DNA of 64,000 nucleotides from Bacillus pumilus. GTDB lineage: Bacteria > Bacillota > Bacilli > Bacillales > Bacillaceae. The notes beneath the pieces were generated by a model. It was not told the origin of the DNA. It made no database searches and saw only the letters and a program-made list of their open reading frames with translations. Position 1 is the stretch's first letter. Every line of letters begins with the position of its first letter. Below, one piece after another: positions 3,900 to 16,449 of the stretch. The stretch spans positions 1,982,272-2,046,271 of the forward strand of contig NZ_CP047089.1 in the NCBI RefSeq assembly GCF_009937765.1, written 5' to 3'. The position numbers were made by a program, and so were the translations under genes.

Positions 3900-3921
3900 A
3901 AAGCACACCACAGTGTGCTTT
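3900..3921. repeat. Left 22-bp target duplication (copy of sip terminator hairpin)
   Basis: AAAGCACAC, loop CACA, GTGTGCTTT. The identical 22 bp recur at 5426-5447 on the other side of the IS. The flanks outside the pair (a run of A on the left, TTCT on the right) reconstruct a normal bidirectional terminator with full A and T tracts, so the insertion split a terminator shared by the signal peptidase gene and the convergent PLP-enzyme gene. Confidence 0.9.
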
Positions 3922-3922
3922 C

Positions 3923-3952
3923 AGCTTGTAGACAAAGTCTACAAGCTTTTTT
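3923..3952 (+). terminator. Hairpin terminator at left end of the IS
   Basis: AGCTTGTAGAC, loop AAA, GTCTACAAGCT, then TTTTTT. It overlaps the terminal inverted repeat and precedes the transposase promoter region, so it should block read-through into the transposase. Confidence 0.8.
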
Positions 3953-3992
3953 GTATAATAAGGGTAATAACAATAATCTGTGGGGGATAAAC

Positions 3993-5348
3993 ATGTTATC
4001 GAAACGTGAAGAAGAAAGAAGAAATCAATTAGAAGTAGTGGCTTTAGATGAATTAGTGCCTGAAGATCATCTTGTGCGGAAAATTGAACAAGCAATCGAT
4101 TTCGATTTCATTTATGATCTTGTCAAAGATCATTATAGTTCTGATAATGGTAGACCAAGTGTTGATCCTGTTGTTCTCATTAAGATGGTCTTAATCCAAT
4201 ATCTATTTGGCATTCGCTCCATGCGTCAAACCATTAAAGAAATTGAAACCAATGTGGCTTATCGTTGGTTTATTGGGTATGGATTTTCGGAGAAAATTCC
4301 GCACTTTTCTACCTTCGGTAAAAACTACGTGAGACGCTTCCACGATACAGATTTATTCGAACAAATTTTTTATCGAATCTTAAGAGAAGCGATGAAAAAA
4401 GGGCTCGTTGACCCGTCTATCGCCTTCATTGATTCGACTCATGTCAAAGCGAACGCCAATAAGAAAAAACTTGAAAAGAAAATCGTTCGAGTTGAGACAA
4501 GAAGTTATCAAAATCAGCTTCATGAAGAGATCAATATTGATCGTGAAGAACATGGAAAAAAGCCCTTACCCCTACAGAATAAAGAAGAAACAAAAGAAAT
4601 CAAGGTCAGTACAACTGACCCAGAGAGTGGCTATTATGTAAAGGATGAACGTGAAAAGTCATTTGCTTATTCATTTCATACAGCGTGTGATTCAAAAGGA
4701 TTTATTTTAGGCTCGCTGGTCACAGGCGGAAATGTTCATGATAGTCGTATGTTGGATTCACTCGTATCAAAAGTGACAGAGAAAGTCGGAAAACCAAATG
4801 TAGTCGCAGTAGATGCGGGGTATAAAACACCTTACATCGCTAAGTTCTTAATGGATCAAGAGATAAGACCTGTCATGCCCTACACTCGTCCAAGAACAAA
4901 AGCTGGTTATTTGAAAAAGAATGAATACGTATATGATGCATATTTTGATTGTTACATTTGCCCCAACGGGCAAATTCTCTCTTATCGTACAACGACTAGA
5001 GAAGGCTATAAGCAATATGTATCCGATTCAGAAGTATGTGAGTCCTGCTCGTTTTTAGATAACTGTACCCAAAGTCAAAACCACACCAAACAAATTCATC
5101 GGCATATTTGGCAGGATTATCTAGATGAAGCAGACAATCTGAGACTCACTGAAATAAATAAGAGCATCTACGCAAAACGGAAAGAAACGATTGAACGCGT
5201 TTTTGCGGATGCAAAAGAAAAGCATGGTATGCGTTGGACGAAACTTCGTGGACTAAAAAAAGTTTCAATGCAAGCGATGCTTACTTTCGCTGCCATGAAC
5301 CTTAAAAAACTAGCAAACTGGACATGGAAAGTACCATGTCCAGCGTAA
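3993..5348 (+). CDS. IS1182-family transposase
   Basis: A 451-aa transposase starting at the ATG at 3993, which has GTGGGGGA 5 nt upstream; the frame is open further upstream but without a ribosome binding site. The N-terminal part (about residues 1-120, with GRPSVDPVVLIKMVLIQYL) is the DUF772-like DNA-binding region. The DDE-type catalytic part has Asp in AFIDSTHVKAN, Asp in VAVDAGYKTP and the C-terminal Glu region ERVFADAKEKHGMRW. A CxxC-type cluster (CYICPNG...CESCSFLDNC) sits between them. The frame is uninterrupted, so the element may be active. Confidence 0.95.
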   Translation: MLSKREEERRNQLEVVALDELVPEDHLVRKIEQAIDFDFIYDLVKDHYSSDNGRPSVDPVVLIKMVLIQYLFGIRSMRQTIKEIETNVAYRWFIGYGFSEKIPHFSTFGKNYVRRFHDTDLFEQIFYRILREAMKKGLVDPSIAFIDSTHVKANANKKKLEKKIVRVETRSYQNQLHEEINIDREEHGKKPLPLQNKEETKEIKVSTTDPESGYYVKDEREKSFAYSFHTACDSKGFILGSLVTGGNVHDSRMLDSLVSKVTEKVGKPNVVAVDAGYKTPYIAKFLMDQEIRPVMPYTRPRTKAGYLKKNEYVYDAYFDCYICPNGQILSYRTTTREGYKQYVSDSEVCESCSFLDNCTQSQNHTKQIHRHIWQDYLDEADNLRLTEINKSIYAKRKETIERVFADAKEKHGMRWTKLRGLKKVSMQAMLTFAAMNLKKLANWTWKVPCPA

Positions 5349-6838: not shown

Positions 6839-7515
6839 TCATTTTTTAGATAAATCTGAAAAAATAATAAATAAAGTTGATAGGCTTTTTTATTTCAATA
6901 AGAAAAGGTAGGGACATGCTGGATGAAAAAGAGGGATGGTTTCATTAGAGAATACGGATCCGTTTTTTGAAAGCAATTAATCATTGACAGCTAGTGAAAT
7001 CATGGAATGTTTATGTTGTATTGCTCTTTCATAGTAAGAAGCGAATCATATGTTGAATGTGACTTAAGAAAAGGAAGGGCTTTTTTCCCAACGGACTTTC
7101 TTGTATATACATATTTTAAGTGACAAGAGAAGAAGGAAAATAGACTCACTCTTTTGTCGGAATTATCAGTAAATATTTCATAAATAATGTGTTAACGACA
7201 TATAATCAGGACTTTTTTATCTGATATATCGGGGGAATTCTTTCTATTTCACAAAAAAGAAAGAATATATAAAGGGATTGATAAATAAGGACTATTTCAA
7301 AAAATGAAGCTTTTATTGCCATTATATGGGTTTGGTGGTTCTTAAGGGGTGGGAAAATCTAGATAATAAGTTAGAGGTTCTACACTTAAAAGTGAAGAAT
7401 TGAATAAAAAGTCACATTTTACCCAAAAGTACGTTCGGTCAAAAATGGGATCTTCTGTTGATGCTTGGAGAGTAGAGCCTATGATACGATCATCATAAGC
7501 TGGGAGGTGAAAAGT
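6839..7515. other. Long AT-rich intergenic region before the peptide gene
   Basis: About 680 bp without a supportable gene. On the plus strand TATAAT at 7201-7206 with TTCATA at 7177-7182 (18-nt spacer) could be the promoter for the peptide gene, which would give a leader of about 300 nt. I saw no second peptide gene with a ribosome binding site here. The length and AT-richness suggest regulatory content or a decayed sequence left of the peptide cluster. Confidence 0.5.
7177..7206 (+). promoter_or_regulatory. Candidate SigA promoter for the peptide cluster
   Basis: TTCATA, 18 nt, TATAAT. The -10 is perfect and the -35 is weak, so this is a tentative call. Confidence 0.35.
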
Positions 7516-7728
7516 ATGACTTATGCAGCGCCGCAAGTTGACTATTCCACTATGGAACCTGCTATTATGGACCAAGCTTGGTTCTTAGTATTTGTTGCTG
7601 TCCTTCTTGGATTGGGAGCAACAGTTGTTCTAGGAGCAGCAGTTTGGTGTATAGCTAACGGCAAGGGTAGCTTTACAGGAGCCGTTCAGTGGGAAAGTGG
7701 CTTAAAAGTCCAAATTGAATGTAAGTAG
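7516..7728 (+). CDS. 70-aa hydrophobic peptide, putative bacteriocin or RiPP precursor
   Basis: The ATG at 7516 has a near-perfect RBS (GGAGGTGA at 7503-7510, 5 nt spacing); the frame is open further upstream but lacks a start with an RBS. Residues 1-20 are a polar acidic segment ending TMEPAIMDQ. Residues 21-48 are strongly hydrophobic and Gly/Ala/Val-rich (LGLGATVVLGAAVW). The tail is polar with a final Lys. Cysteines are at 45 and 69. A strong hairpin terminator follows, then genes for an ABC transporter, a PqqD-like/M50 protease and a small membrane protein. This layout is typical of secreted peptide clusters. I do not recognise the sequence; it does not resemble circular bacteriocins, SkfA, YydF or lantibiotics as I know them. 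No modifying enzyme is adjacent. Confidence 0.7.
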   Translation: MTYAAPQVDYSTMEPAIMDQAWFLVFVAVLLGLGATVVLGAAVWCIANGKGSFTGAVQWESGLKVQIECK

Positions 7729-7772
7729 CTATACTTAGGATTCATCTTTTTACTTCTATGAAATGACACCAG

Positions 7773-7815
7773 GGCTAAACCGTCTGTGGCGGGCGGTTTA
7801 GCCTGATCTGTTTTT
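7773..7815 (+). terminator. Attenuating terminator after the peptide gene
   Basis: GGCTAAACCG (7773-7782) pairs with CGGTTTAGCC (7794-7803), followed by TGATCTG and TTTTT. It separates the small peptide gene from the transport genes; partial read-through would give much more peptide mRNA than transporter mRNA. Confidence 0.85.
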
Positions 7816-7843
7816 AAAGAATATGCAGACACTTGGAGGTTAT

Positions 7844-8590
7844 ATGTTTACGATCGAGAAATTAACCAAGACGTATAAAAATAACGTGACTGCTGTCAAA
7901 GATTTTCATTTAAAGATCGACCCTCATCAAATCGTTGCTGTCGCTGGACCGAATGGTTCTGGTAAAACAACGATGATTAACTGTATACTCGGCATCATCA
8001 AGCATACAGAAGGAACGATTTTTTTGCAGGACGTCACAAATGACGAACCATCCTTTAAAAAACAAGTAGCCTATGTTCCAGATGATCTGCTGCTCCCTGA
8101 AGCATTGACTGGTGCTGAATATTTAGATTTTGTTTCTTCTATGTATGAATGTAAAACAATTCATAGAAGAAATCAACTAATTGAACTGTTTGATATGGAC
8201 TCAGCTTTATCAAGACCGATTGAAACCTATTCACATGGTATGAAAAAAAAGACACAGCTGATTGCCGCCTTTATGCTTGATAGTCAATTGGTGATTATGG
8301 ATGAGCCCTTTAGAGGACTTGATATTGAAGCGGTTATAAACACAAAGAAACTGATGAAACGTTATGCCGAGCACCATGGTGCGATCTTGCTTTCAACGCA
8401 TGATATGCTTTCAGCGGAAGAGCTGTGCCATAAAATCGCCATTATTTCTAAGGGAAATAAAATGGATGAAGGAACGGTCTCAGCCTTAAAGGAGAAGTAT
8501 CAATCAAGCACATTGGAACAGGTGTTTCTGAAAGCTTCAATGTTAAGTGATAGGGGTGCACATTTTGATGAAATCATTAATCATTTCTAG
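7844..8590 (+). CDS. ABC transporter ATP-binding protein (peptide export/immunity)
   Basis: A 248-aa ATPase subunit. The start at 7844 has GGAGG just upstream; an in-frame ATG at 7823 lacks an RBS. Walker A is GPNGSGKT (residues 35-42), the signature is the degenerate YSHGM (129-133, in place of LSGGQ), Walker B is LVIMDEP (149-155) and the switch His is His186 in STHD. Such short single-domain ATPases, related to YydI/BcrA types, pair with a separate permease to export peptides or give immunity. The next gene, overlapping by 23 nt, encodes that permease. Substrate is inferred from context only. Confidence 0.88.
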   Translation: MFTIEKLTKTYKNNVTAVKDFHLKIDPHQIVAVAGPNGSGKTTMINCILGIIKHTEGTIFLQDVTNDEPSFKKQVAYVPDDLLLPEALTGAEYLDFVSSMYECKTIHRRNQLIELFDMDSALSRPIETYSHGMKKKTQLIAAFMLDSQLVIMDEPFRGLDIEAVINTKKLMKRYAEHHGAILLSTHDMLSAEELCHKIAIISKGNKMDEGTVSALKEKYQSSTLEQVFLKASMLSDRGAHFDEIINHF

Positions 8591-10034
8591 AATGATGCTT
8601 AAAATGTGGCAGCAGGAGATGTATAAGCTCTTTGATACTCAGACGAAGCGGATCATTGTGATCTTATTCTTTTTATTTGCCGTCACAATGGGCGCCATCA
8701 TCGGATACAGTTTTACGGGTGTCTTTATGAAGGCATTCTTACATGGCGATGAACGTTCACTTGGATTACTCGTTGTGTCAATGGCGATCAATGCATCCAT
8801 CTTTACAAGTCTGTTATTCATTTTGATCAAGGTCAGAACGCCTGAGCAAGACCGTTTTTCTATGCAGCTCAGCTGGTTCCCGCTTTCTACTTTTCAGAAA
8901 AGCCTTGGATACTTTATTCCGATGGTGACAGTGGTGGCAGGGCTTGTTTTATTTTTTATCGGTATTCTGCTTTTACCTAATTTTATTGCCCAGGGAATAG
9001 GTGTTTATTTTATTGTTACGTTCTTTTTGATGGTGATTTTGCAATCGCTTTTTGTCTTAATGCTTTTGCAACTCATTTACAATATGACGTATTTGGTCGT
9101 TCTAAAATTAAAATTACCGTTGCAAAAATTTGCAGCGATCTTTGTTTTATTAGCACTGGTTGTAGCGTATGGAATGACGCATTTTGATATAAGTCAAATT
9201 CAGCAATCATATATACAGTTTGATTATCATTTGATGTATTTCACAGCACCGTTTTTCTTAGTGGCTCAAGGAATGTCTCCTGAAGGGGTAAACTATGCAA
9301 TCTTGATTCTGTTTATCCTTTTATCGACGTGTGGCGCTTTTCTTTCTCTTGCGATGATGCCGATTATGGCAGAGAAAAAAGCGTTAACCTTTTTAAACAA
9401 ATTGCCGTTCTCTTCTTCAAAAAAATGGTCACTGATTGTAAAGGAAATGAAATCACAGGTGCGAAATGAAGAAAACATTTTAAATTTTCTCATTCTCCTC
9501 ATTGTGATCTTATTCGTCCGTTATCAGTTTGGGTTCCGCTTTGAAGAAGAAGCATTTTTTGTTCTCTGTGCTCTCGCTGGATTAACCGCCTTCAATTCAT
9601 TTGGCAATGATAAACGAATGCTGGGGATGTACAAAACATTTGGCCTAAGATCGTGGGAAGTGGCTCTGTATAAGTTTATCGGGCTTTTGCTTGTTGGTGT
9701 AATGCAAATTGCCATCTTCATGCTGACAACGCTGACCCTTCCTGATCAAGTTTGGAACGTATTGATTGGGGCCGCTGTGCTATGCAATGCCACTGCGCTC
9801 TTTTATGTGGTAGGTATTTTACTTCCGCTTGATCGGAACAATCCCTACACAGGCATTTTTTCATTTGGAGCACTTATTTTACTCATGATTCCAATTGTTT
9901 TTATTGGAAACTATGTCATAGGGGAGTCGAGTCAAACGCTTCAGTGGCTGCTTGTAGCTGCATTTGAAGGTCTGCTCATCTTTGCCATATATAAAGGTTT
10001 TTCATGGAGGTATTCACATGATTCAACTTCTTAA
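8568..10034 (+). CDS. ABC transporter permease, multi-spanning membrane protein
   Basis: A 488-aa very hydrophobic protein with about twelve membrane segments and no recognisable catalytic motif. It overlaps the ATPase gene by 23 nt and is the obvious membrane partner. The ATG at 8568 has AGGGGTG about 9 nt upstream; a GTG at 8547 is possible but less likely. A central soluble stretch (KALTFLNKLPFSSSKKWSLIVKEMKSQVRNEEN) separates two membrane halves, as in two-domain permeases. It would export the 70-aa peptide or pump it away from the membrane. Family identification is weak and rests on position and topology. Confidence 0.75.
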   Translation: MKSLIISRMMLKMWQQEMYKLFDTQTKRIIVILFFLFAVTMGAIIGYSFTGVFMKAFLHGDERSLGLLVVSMAINASIFTSLLFILIKVRTPEQDRFSMQLSWFPLSTFQKSLGYFIPMVTVVAGLVLFFIGILLLPNFIAQGIGVYFIVTFFLMVILQSLFVLMLLQLIYNMTYLVVLKLKLPLQKFAAIFVLLALVVAYGMTHFDISQIQQSYIQFDYHLMYFTAPFFLVAQGMSPEGVNYAILILFILLSTCGAFLSLAMMPIMAEKKALTFLNKLPFSSSKKWSLIVKEMKSQVRNEENILNFLILLIVILFVRYQFGFRFEEEAFFVLCALAGLTAFNSFGNDKRMLGMYKTFGLRSWEVALYKFIGLLLVGVMQIAIFMLTTLTLPDQVWNVLIGAAVLCNATALFYVVGILLPLDRNNPYTGIFSFGALILLMIPIVFIGNYVIGESSQTLQWLLVAAFEGLLIFAIYKGFSWRYSHDSTS

Positions 10035-10923
10035 CAATAAGCTAAAGATTGAGCGGGTACCGGCACTCGCGCCGTATGTGACTTTACAAAAGAGACATCT
10101 CACGGATACGCAATATGGAAGCACACTCCCGATTAATGAAAGTGCCTATCATATGTTAACGAAAGTAGATGGCAAAAGGACAGAAGCGAGTATTACAGCA
10201 GAGCTCGCCGATTTGTTTCAAGTCGATGAGTCTGTGATTTCTCGAGACTTTTATCAACTGATGATGGGGTTGAATCAGCATCATTTACTGTCTATTCATT
10301 ATCAATCACCGTATCGGATTGTGACAGCTTGCTGTCAATTTTTCAAACAGTATCAATTGAAAATGAAGGAACGATTTGATTGCACTGGTCACTCGTTCCT
10401 TCATATTTTTGGGACAGCATTACTCATGGTGACACGTAAAATCATCTTTTTCTGGATGCTTTTTATGGTCATGGCAGGAATCGCTTTTTTATTCATTCCT
10501 GATCGATCAATTGCAGCCATTGCGATTTATTTTACAATTATTTATTTTGGATTAATTACCGGGACCGCCTTACATGAGGCAGCACACGGCTATGCGCATC
10601 GTAAATTTGCGGGACGGGATGGTCCACAAGGTTTTTTTGCGAGTGATATGATGTCTGTGAAATTTGTGAGACCTGTATTAGATCCGTTTCAGAAAAAGCA
10701 GGTATGGATTACCTTGCTTGGGCCGCTTGTCCCAGGTGTGATCGGAGCAGCAGGGATCATTTTGACCGTATTATGTCTAAAAGAAAATCCAATTTCAACA
10801 GGTTTCTTTATTTTTTCTATCACGTATTTTATTCAATTACTCTATCTTCTTCCTTTTATGGGGGATGGTAAATCTATTATGAAGCAGCTATTGCTTGGGG
10901 GAATGGGAGGACAACGATCATGA
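10018..10923 (+). CDS. PqqD-like domain fused to M50-type membrane metalloprotease
   Basis: A 301-aa protein starting at the ATG at 10018, 8 nt after GGAGG, overlapping the permease gene by 17 nt. Residues 10-95 resemble the PqqD/RiPP-recognition fold: LPINESAYHMLTKVDGKRT followed by an acidic helix and a two-residue turn. Residues 130-280 hold four or five membrane segments with the zinc motif HEAAH (186-190) and the distal LPFMGDGKS (third ligand Asp283), diagnostic of M50/S2P-like proteases. PqqD-like domains bind leader peptides, so the likely job is to recognise and cut the 70-aa precursor at the membrane. YydH of the B. subtilis epipeptide cluster is a functional parallel, but no radical-SAM enzyme is present here. 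Confidence 0.8.
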   Translation: MIQLLNNKLKIERVPALAPYVTLQKRHLTDTQYGSTLPINESAYHMLTKVDGKRTEASITAELADLFQVDESVISRDFYQLMMGLNQHHLLSIHYQSPYRIVTACCQFFKQYQLKMKERFDCTGHSFLHIFGTALLMVTRKIIFFWMLFMVMAGIAFLFIPDRSIAAIAIYFTIIYFGLITGTALHEAAHGYAHRKFAGRDGPQGFFASDMMSVKFVRPVLDPFQKKQVWITLLGPLVPGVIGAAGIILTVLCLKENPISTGFFIFSITYFIQLLYLLPFMGDGKSIMKQLLLGGMGGQRS

Positions 10924-11201
10924 ACGTACAGGCGATGAAACAAGGTGCAATTGTTGGTGGTTTTCTTGGGTTTTTAGGCTTTCCGATGCTGACAATCGGT
11001 GTATTGTTCTATCATTTATTTCAATCAAAAACGAATGATGCTTTATTATTTAACAGCCTCGCTTTTGAGATGGAAGGTTCATCCGCATTTACTTTTCAGA
11101 TCAAGCCAAACTTTTTTATTTATATGATGGTGATTTTTGCCGCGAGTTTTCTCATTGTGGCCATCTTATCAGCCATGAAGCAGAAAAAAGCGAAAGGTTA
11201 G
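10920..11201 (+). CDS. Small two-helix membrane protein, possible immunity protein
   Basis: A 93-aa protein whose ATG overlaps the stop of the protease gene (ATGA), so it is translationally coupled and the last gene of the cluster. Two hydrophobic segments (about residues 8-35 and 66-85) flank a short extracellular loop, ending in a basic tail (KQKKAKG). Small basic membrane proteins at the end of peptide clusters are often self-immunity factors. This is an inference from position; I recognise no family. Confidence 0.7.
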   Translation: MNVQAMKQGAIVGGFLGFLGFPMLTIGVLFYHLFQSKTNDALLFNSLAFEMEGSSAFTFQIKPNFFIYMMVIFAASFLIVAILSAMKQKKAKG

Positions 11202-11225
11202 GAGAATTCTCCTAATCTTTTTTTG
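11198..11225 (+). terminator. Terminator of the peptide cluster
   Basis: The 18-bp palindrome TTAGGAGAATTCTCCTAA, which includes the stop codon, is followed by a run of T. Confidence 0.8.
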
Positions 11226-11281: not shown

Positions 11282-11962
11282 ATGTTAAAAAAATGGAGTG
11301 TTCTTATATTCACTTTTGTTCTATTAGCAGGATGCGGCGAGAAGGCCGAAGAAACCACACAAACTGAGAAGACGGTATCAGAAAAACCTGCAACAGAAAA
11401 AAATAAAAAAACAGCAACTCAAAATGAAATAACTATCGAACCTATGAAACTAACAAAAAATGAAAAAAATCTTCTGGAATCATTATCAGATAAATCATTT
11501 GAAGCGATGACAGTGAAGGGATTAAAAGAAAGTGTCAAAAGTGTTTCCTTGATCGGTTTGCATTACAAGGATGGACAATTATTGAAAGAAGATACAAAAA
11601 AAATTACCCTGAAACTTCATCAAAATGGTGTCGATAACAGTGTCAAATTTATCTATCAGCTAGAAGAGAAAAAAGATGATCTGCTAAAAGTAACGTATAG
11701 CTTGTGGAAAGATAAGGAGCAGAGCGAACAAACGAAGCTCGCCACTAGCGTTGATTTTAAACAGGACGTGGGAGGAAACACAACGATATCAGAAACAGAT
11801 ATTTTTCACATGTCTCCTGGAGAGAAAAAATTAATTTCTATTACCATCACGACTGGAATGAACTATGAGTTTTCTGGTTTAACAAATTCTGAAAAGATTC
11901 TAAAAGAAGAATTAAAAAATGTGAAGCAGGCTTATTTGGTGTATTTGCAACTCGATAAATAA
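11282..11962 (+). CDS. Putative secreted lipoprotein of unknown function
   Basis: A 226-aa protein with a lipoprotein signal peptide: basic MLKKW, a hydrophobic core and the lipobox LLAGC with Cys18. A low-complexity Glu/Lys/Thr-rich linker (about residues 20-50) leads to a globular domain of roughly 170 residues. I recognise no family. It is expected to be anchored on the outer face of the membrane. Preceded by its own SigA promoter and RBS AAAGGGG. It lies between the peptide cluster and a tRNA gene and may be accessory DNA; there is no evidence that it belongs to the peptide system. Confidence 0.8.
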   Translation: MLKKWSVLIFTFVLLAGCGEKAEETTQTEKTVSEKPATEKNKKTATQNEITIEPMKLTKNEKNLLESLSDKSFEAMTVKGLKESVKSVSLIGLHYKDGQLLKEDTKKITLKLHQNGVDNSVKFIYQLEEKKDDLLKVTYSLWKDKEQSEQTKLATSVDFKQDVGGNTTISETDIFHMSPGEKKLISITITTGMNYEFSGLTNSEKILKEELKNVKQAYLVYLQLDK

Positions 11963-15691: not shown

Positions 15692-15697
15692 AGATAA

Positions 15698-15711
15698 TGA
15701 TAACGTTTTCA
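15698..15711 (+). promoter_or_regulatory. Catabolite response element (cre)
   Basis: TGATAACGTTTTCA just downstream of the -10 matches the CcpA site with one deviation. Its position suggests roadblock repression by CcpA when glucose is present. Confidence 0.65.
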
Positions 15712-15741
15712 AATAATGAATCCATTAGGAGGAAAAATGAG

Positions 15742-16449
15742 ATGAAAAAGCTACTGATCACTAGTGCCATTAGCTCAGCTATTTTATTGGGGGCGATTCC
15801 AGTCAGTGTCCCAGGTCTTTCTCAGACGCAGGAAATAGAAGCAGCGCAATTATCGAAAGGTATCGGCGGACGTACTTAAATCAATAGCAATGGGTCCATA
15901 TTGGTCACAAAGATTCAACTCCCTTCCGCAATGAGTGTATCAAATGGGACAGCTTATATTTATTCTGGATTCACAGGGTCAAAGGAAGCGGATATTGGTC
16001 TTCAATACAGTTCAACATATAATGTGTGGAAACCTACGATGAAAGTAGGAGCAAATAATCAAGAAACCTATATCGAAGGAAAAAATGATTTTACGTATAC
16101 AAAAGGGTTTAAGCCTGGAAGTATTGTGCAAATGACCATTTATAAAAACTTGAATGGACATACAAGAGCAACGTTCTGGGGGACAAATAATGTTGGTTAT
16201 ACTGGGCGTATTATCACGGAAATCCAAAACTCTAACATTGGTTCTGTGACGAAGTGGAAATTACTGTCGACAGTAGCAGTGACTGACGATATCTATCGGA
16301 AAGATATTCGTGCGAACTTCTCTACTCGTTTTACTGACATCACATTAGACAGTCGTGCCGTCACACCTGTGATTGATACGCAAGACTTTACGTCCATTCA
16401 AGTATCAGGGAATACAGTAAATATGCAGGTGTTAAAAACAACGAATTAA
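15742..16449 (+). pseudogene. YncM-like secreted protein gene interrupted by an in-frame stop
   Basis: The ATG at 15742 with AGGAGG upstream starts a signal peptide (MKKLLITSAISSAILLGA) and 46 codons ending KGIGGRT followed by TAA at 15877-15879. The same frame then continues without another stop to 16449, reading [15 protein letters not shown] and a conserved secreted domain ([36 protein letters not shown]). From memory B. subtilis YncM has a Tyr at the stop position, so one base change (TAY to TAA) would explain it. Together the parts give about 235 residues. The sequence is otherwise undamaged, so the change is recent, or it is a sequencing error. Function of YncM is unknown. Confidence 0.75.

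Follow-up and report, generated by a model that had tools for sequence, protein, structure and literature searches.

Described TMcins and the locus in Bacillus pumilus

TMcins are a class of ribosomally synthesized and post-translationally modified peptides (RiPPs), published in 2025-2026, whose genes are designated TmcA, B, C, P and E (PMC12328743, PMC13252029). An operon which most likely makes and exports a peptide of this class was found in a stretch of 64,000 nucleotides of B. pumilus DNA (the window; NZ_CP047089.1, positions 1,982,272 to 2,046,271), which belongs to a chromosome of 3.77 Mb present as a single contig.

TMcin-G1905 is encoded by the genes tmcA, B, C, E, P and D on the Staphylococcus aureus plasmid pCT545 (PMC12328743, PMC13252029). 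There, the site-2 protease (S2P) TmcP, which matched the structure 3b4r, removes a 45-residue leader from a precursor with one transmembrane helix, a C25-C50 disulfide is made via TmcD, TmcBC exports the peptide and TmcE acts as an escort; leader removal and this one disulfide are the reported modifications (PMC13252029). The N-terminus of the mature peptide was found by sequencing (PMC12328743), and the peptide forms large beta-barrel pores and kills Gram-positive bacteria (PMC12328743, PMC13252029). Homologs occur in Bacillota and Actinomycetota in three gene arrangements, with NC_006270.3 as a chromosomal example (PMC12328743).

The operon of B. pumilus (positions 7516-11201 of the window, plus strand) consists of five genes in the order A-B-C-P-E, which encode a 70-aa peptide, an ABC ATPase, a permease, a PqqD-M50 fusion and a small membrane protein. 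With a probability of about 0.88, it is a TMcin biosynthetic locus of a subtype in which TmcP bears a RiPP recognition element (RRE), an extra domain which probably grips the start of the peptide. The TMcin identity is supported by the agreement in the helix bounded by tryptophans, the cysteine spacing, the modelled fold of one helix and two strands, the S2P residues and the gene set; TMcin-G1905 was compared by its printed features. An earlier note on this DNA had described a peptide resembling no family and thereby implied a novel system. This view is no longer tenable, because the peptide has the defining features of the described TMcin family and the cluster fits the published gene set.

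Organization of the operon

All five open reading frames (ORFs) which the earlier note had described as tightly packed were recovered, and the overlaps of 23 nt (ATPase/permease), 17 nt (permease/PqqD-M50) and 4 nt (PqqD-M50/small membrane protein) were reproduced exactly. The first gene, tmcA (7516..7728), was recognized by its ORF, relatives, alignment and an AlphaFold2 (AF2) model and encodes the 70-aa precursor with Cys45 and Cys69, as had been noted before. Since the peptide is encoded in 24 of the 44 genus genomes and at 26 loci distributed over Bacillota and Actinomycetota, this ORF is not a chance one. The gene tmcB (7844..8590) encodes an ABC exporter ATPase of 248 aa according to its ORF, Pfam and NCBIfam matches and the TmcB tree. 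For the 488-aa product of tmcC (8568..10034), no Pfam or NCBIfam family was found above the cut-off; its profile matched the permeases of RRE-less loci (probability 94, E 1e-7). The gene tmcP (10018..10923) encodes an RRE-fused site-2-type intramembrane protease of 301 aa (Pfam, alignment, model and tree), and tmcE (10920..11201) a membrane protein of 93 aa with two helices, as judged from the sequence, whose profile matched the small membrane proteins of RRE-less loci (probability 90, E 1.5e-6). Its predicted role as the escort TmcE had been missed in the earlier reading. The complete set tmcA, tmcB, tmcC, tmcP and tmcE is present, with the identities of tmcE and tmcC resting on modest profile matches.

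The same set accompanies the peptide elsewhere: a TmcB-like ATPase was located near tmcA in all 22 loci searched, an HExxH membrane protease in 23 lineages, and the small membrane protein could be aligned across 16 loci. A plain membrane protein operon, in which nothing is secreted and the peptide just spans the membrane, is consequently very unlikely, since an ABC ATPase and an intramembrane protease stand beside the peptide in nearly all lineages examined and the characterised relative TMcin-G1905 is secreted (PMC13252029). Pfam and NCBIfam revealed no classical modification enzyme: oxidative decarboxylases, aminotransferases, methyltransferases and radical-SAM enzymes are all missing among the five proteins. 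Among the best 25 of 39 matches to models of defence systems, only matches of ATPase models to TmcB were observed.

The precursor peptide TmcA

The predicted leader comprises the acidic residues 1-20 (7516..7575), as derived from the position of Cys25 in mature TMcin-G1905 and from the AW start, which is conserved. It contains YAAPQV at residues 3-8 (7522..7539), which fits YxxPx[LVIFA], the motif bound by the RREs of lasso peptides and LPP (PMC13381572). The cleavage site was placed at about Gln20/Ala21, because a cysteine then occupies position 25 as in mature TMcin-G1905. The predicted mature TMcin (residues 21-70, 50 aa; 7576..7725) is supported by alignment, AF2 model and cysteine numbering; it would possess Cys25 and Cys49, with W2 and W24 on either side of the helix, and an average mass of ~5207 Da with the disulfide.

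The family core reads AWFLVF...WC...FTG...G...C. Among 23 aligned TmcA rows, W22, C45, F53 and G55 are invariant and W44 occurs in at least 90%. With the residue preceding the conserved Trp as position 1, a cysteine is located at 25 in 22 of the 23 rows, with the second one there at 49-51; the exception is L116 (L numbers denote loci, G numbers genomes), with Cys at 20 and 42. The AF2 model shows a helix at 21-48 and strands at 53-58 and 64-69 (pLDDT 68).

The peptide matched none of the Pfam or NCBIfam models. Its sequence matches in the PDB did not go below E 0.29, nor its fold matches below E 1.8. On these grounds, readings as a circular bacteriocin, class II bacteriocin or lanthipeptide were rejected. 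A circular bacteriocin such as pumilarin or altitudin A was further discarded because none of the five proteins has a SpoIIM/DUF95 domain, a criterion taken from PMC10888436. Besides pumilarin and altitudin A, this mining study of B. altitudinis ECC22 names a closticin-like gene; neither PqqD nor WFLVF occurs in the passages of its main text that were searched. LPP (PMC13381572), which was considered due to the YxxP motif, was found via a signal peptidase of the archaeal type, and its C-termini are highly variable; only the RRE logic is common to both.

Divergent tmcA genes occur in L116 (6238-6435) and L134 (minus strand), with EWTVV or DWTVV instead of AWFLVF; both loci have RRE and YxxP and lie on a long branch of the TmcB tree. 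Two tandem copies of tmcA in a single locus were observed in L077 (5716-6213) and L114 (5406-6043).

TmcP and the leader motif

The N-terminal PqqD domain of TmcP scored above the Pfam cut-off (27.6 versus 23.4 bits), and no other protein of this genome matched PqqD at E 0.01. The structure model matches lasso B1 RREs, PqqD and mjS2P (3b4r). The PqqD-like/M50 fusion and the RRE profile match expected for the protease N-terminus were thus both confirmed. The part encoded at 10051..10296 contains Asp77, which is invariant in 12 of 12 RRE rows and aligns with an Asp of the lasso B1 proteins. The S2P domain (residues 126-298; 10393..10911) contains HEAAH (186-190) and LLPFMGDG with Asp283, and H186, E187, H190, P279, D283 and G284 are invariant in 20 rows. 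The features of the S2P clan, i.e. HExxH, distal Pro and Asp, about four transmembrane helices and a 3B4R-like fold, are present. Pfam DUF3267 (PF11667), the family associated with TmcP of TMcins, did not match TmcP of the window; L073 and L133 scored below the cut-off, and 9 of 20 TmcPs match at E 0.1.

The leader motif YxxPx[VIA] was found in all 11 RRE lineages (PqqD above the cut-off in 10 of them, the eleventh being just under) and in none of 12 tested lineages without PqqD. The latter do not include L086, a relative of L085 with a leader lacking the motif and a protease that was not scanned. Near-copies (L063-L072, L074-L076, L079 and L081-L083) were likewise excluded from the tally; their peptides carry YxxP, with Met at the sixth place in L081, and their proteases lay outside the Pfam scan, L079 ending before the protease. 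In the TmcB tree of 22 rows, which contains a single long row (L117) as well as three rows of unusual composition and does not include L087 and L120 (split or out-of-reach TmcB), all RRE lineages lie on one side of one branch with a support of 99/100. Because the RRE label needs a single change on this tree, the co-occurrence is best regarded as one old event followed by long retention and not as repeated evidence, and a Fisher test was for this reason not used. The retention of the motif across cores as different as those of L116, L133 and L134 is still informative.

It could be argued that the locus belongs to the TMcins and that its RRE is a relic or has another role, such as keeping TmcP close to TmcBC or making the fold more stable, with the leader recognised only inside the membrane, which has to be the case in TMcins lacking an RRE. 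The TmcPs of the 12 lineages without a PqqD match indicate that the RRE is not needed for the chemistry, and its presence goes back to one change. However, the motif is kept in all RRE lineages even where the remainder of the leader and also the core have diverged (L116, L133, L134), Asp77 is invariant, and YxxP is the type of motif that lasso and LPP RREs bind (PMC13381572), so that a relic is improbable. It is fairly probable that two old TMcin branches exist and that in one of them, to which the present locus and those of the pumilus and licheniformis groups belong, an RRE of the lasso type on the protease reads the leader motif YxxPx[VIA], the RRE having been gained or lost once within the TMcins. 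Neither an RRE domain in TmcP nor the YxxP leader motif was found in the main text of the TMcin papers (PMC12328743, PMC13252029); judging from word searches of main texts, supplements excluded, and from literature searches, RRE-bearing TMcins appear to be unreported.

Proposed mechanism

Drawing on the characterised relative and on lasso RREs, the following pathway may be proposed. TmcA would insert into the membrane of the producer by its single helix (residues 21-48), and the cytosolic leader (1-20) would dock on the RRE domain of TmcP via Tyr3-x-x-Pro6-x-Val8. This docking may position the helix for the cut by the zinc S2P at about Gln20/Ala21, helped by the escort TmcE. A disulfide Cys45-Cys69 (Cys25-Cys49 of the mature peptide) would be formed by a DsbA-like enzyme of the host encoded elsewhere, TmcBC would extract and export the mature 50-aa peptide, and this would assemble into beta-barrel pores in other Gram-positive cells. 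The core of the mechanism suggested in the earlier note, a leader-recognising membrane protease and export by the ABC pair, is backed by the relatives and the TMcin papers; its novelty is not. In the RRE branch, a soluble recognition module would pass a transmembrane helix to an intramembrane enzyme.

Neither an oxidoreductase gene nor tmcD was found in the operon. DsbA-like Thioredoxin_4 matches are located elsewhere on the chromosome (767605-768117, 7e-33; 3222621-3222872, 8.5e-6). The gene tmcD was reported to be missing outside staphylococci (PMC13252029). This remark has to be qualified, since thioredoxin-like genes occur near tmcA in L062 and L088 (Pfam) and in L082 (CxxC motif), and in L133 (8560-9276), an RRE-type locus with the order P-A-B-C-E, a TmcE-like membrane protein carries a fused thioredoxin domain (CPDC). 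An immunity gene is not evident.

Distribution and possible function

The 26 tmcA loci were obtained in a scan with one genome per species and derive from Bacillus, Metabacillus, Marininema, Paraclostridium, Romboutsia, an uncultured Peptostreptococcaceae bacterium, Actinoplanes, Georgenia, Oceanitalea, Kocuria and Enterococcus. The accession NC_006270.3 mentioned above is presumably B. licheniformis ATCC 14580. Further genomes of the genus with tmcA (G061, G062, G064, G065 and G067) were outside the locus comparison. Relatives of the pumilus group share 89-99% peptide identity. Profile searches, in which each tally counts the centre genome or others already known, detected the peptide in 9 of 398 genomes of the host's class and in 4 of 394 genomes from the class to which the Actinoplanes locus belongs; in the class of a Romboutsia locus, 2 of 291 genomes matched, one of which was rejected, while the Enterococcus family gave 3 of 105 and the family of G256 gave 3 of 10. 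A candidate in G1044 (L125, E 3e-4) was dropped, as the match extends over 36 of 67 positions and no comparable ABC or HExxH gene was seen alongside. Plasmid records with tmcA comprise three of Paraclostridium and one of Roseburia; phage records gave no tmcA match. The tmcC gene of a Paraclostridium plasmid (L062, 6916-8378) and the tmcB gene of Kocuria sp. 36 (L087, 6252-6964) each read as two ORFs.

The peptide might alternatively serve the cell's own purpose, such as signalling, envelope stress or sibling killing, and not the killing of other species. Its conservation between the pumilus and licheniformis groups is unusually high (80-83% identity versus 47-49% for TmcP), and its presence in more than half of the genomes of the genus (24 of 44) resembles a steady trait more than a fast-evolving weapon; the epipeptide EpeX is a sibling-acting analogue. 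The patchy presence elsewhere (9/398, 4/394 and 3/105 genomes), the plasmid copies and the killing by TMcin-G1905 (PMC12328743, PMC13252029) fit a bacteriocin instead, and such a private function is rather unlikely.

Hairpins, selection and neighbouring genes

Between tmcA and tmcB, a hairpin of 15 pairs (7772..7804, plus strand; RNA fold z -2.6) could be a partial terminator or an mRNA-end hairpin. A gapless hairpin (-15 kcal/mol or better) was found 3' of tmcA in 19 of 28 loci; those of L078 and L085 are present and were missed by the strict scan, and none was found in six Peptostreptococcaceae loci and in Kocuria. In four loci of the B. licheniformis group, the stem is kept through base changes and has no T-run. 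The hairpin postulated in the earlier note is thus real; because of these conserved stems lacking a T-run, its role as an attenuating terminator is not secure, and an mRNA 3'-end hairpin is as likely. A terminator-like hairpin with a T-run lies at the operon end (11192..11221, plus strand). The weak promoter-like site TTGATG-16-TATGAT 5' of the peptide gene (7458..7485, plus strand) is no evidence on its own, since 14 such sites were found in the region versus 12.6 expected.

Comparison of the window with six relatives of the pumilus group indicated purifying selection in most cases, an exception being the core of L072 with 10 amino-acid versus 4 silent changes. The synonymous divergence (dS) was ~0.07-0.31 for tmcA and tmcB (7516-8590) and ~0.44-2.6 for tmcC, tmcP and tmcE (8568-11201); high expression, RNA constraint or recombination could account for this difference.

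A lipoprotein gene 3' of the operon (11282-11962) is 64% and 42% identical in L069 and L071. As it was not seen beside the operon in L072, L073 and L075, it is probably not part of the system. A transposase-like ORF (recognized by eye; 3915-5348) lies between a signal-peptidase-like gene and a pyridoxal phosphate (PLP)-enzyme-like gene; it looks like an insertion, because the apparent counterparts of both genes adjoin each other in B. pumilus L069. At 15697-16449, a signal-peptide-like piece and a 182-aa secreted-looking piece form two adjoining ORFs, which may represent one interrupted gene.

Comparison with known systems

Like TMcin-G1905, the system comprises a precursor whose single helix is bounded by Trp, a predicted mature peptide with Cys25 and a second Cys close to position 50, an S2P protease, an ABC pair, a predicted two-helix escort and no other modification enzyme. 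Unlike TMcin-G1905, it has the gene order A-B-C-P-E, a predicted leader of 20 aa instead of 45, an RRE on TmcP and YxxPxV in the leader, and its operon lacks tmcD. The Enterococcus relative L088, with HEYMH at 69 and Asp158, can be set beside H68 and D158 of the paper; its order is B-C-E-P-A, with tmcB first and tmcA last, and the core operon of the paper seemingly has the same arrangement. The TMcin papers (PMC12328743, PMC13252029) deal with a single characterised member, which is encoded on a human pathogen's plasmid, and the chromosomal Bacillus locus would be a good second model. RRE and motif offer a cheap way to probe how a leader guides intramembrane proteolysis, and the combination of RRE-S2P, YxxP and AWFLVF is a search key for further members.

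Epipeptide systems of the EpeXEPAB type also have an ABC pair and use the radical-SAM enzyme EpeE. An epipeptide was rejected here, as a radical-SAM epimerase is absent among the five operon proteins. The further likeness to these systems is a short peptide with an M50 protease in Bacillus (PMC10885120). In lasso B1 proteins (TfuB1, 6jx3; TbiB1, 5v1v) and LppB of LPP (PMC13381572), a small RRE serves other leader peptidases, whereas the RRE described here forms part of an intramembrane protease whose substrate would be a membrane helix.

The daptide protease MpaP, which removes the leader, likewise has an N-terminal RRE on an intramembrane site-2 protease, and its leader motif ELExMEAP ends with xxAP like YAAP here (PMC10036551). 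The NCBIfam model of the daptide protease also gave a weak match to TmcP, extending across both domains (31.6 of 300 bits, E 9e-8). Nevertheless, a daptide or epipeptide-like pathway which lacks its modification genes is extremely unlikely. The peptide ends with ECK and not with the invariant C-terminal Thr of daptides, and the Thr-derived Dmp C-terminus and its enzymes are absent. The S2P profile of RRE-bearing TmcP matched RRE-less TmcP better (E 1.1e-21) than it matched daptide proteases (1.1e-6), and in an S2P tree based on a short alignment with several long branches, 23 TmcPs split from 12 daptide proteases with a support of 100/100 (L146 was left out of the daptide set, as the part taken has no HExxH). 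Since the RREs of both proteases in addition match poorly (probability 29, E 6e-4), identity with the daptide protease was not accepted. In the same tree, the RRE-bearing TmcPs lie on one side with a weaker support of 86/81. The RRE of TmcP looks distinct from that of the daptide fusion, although the common xxAP ending of the leader motifs leaves a shared RRE origin open. If the two RREs are distinct, the RRE-S2P fusion is a design which was arrived at more than once for membrane-born peptides.

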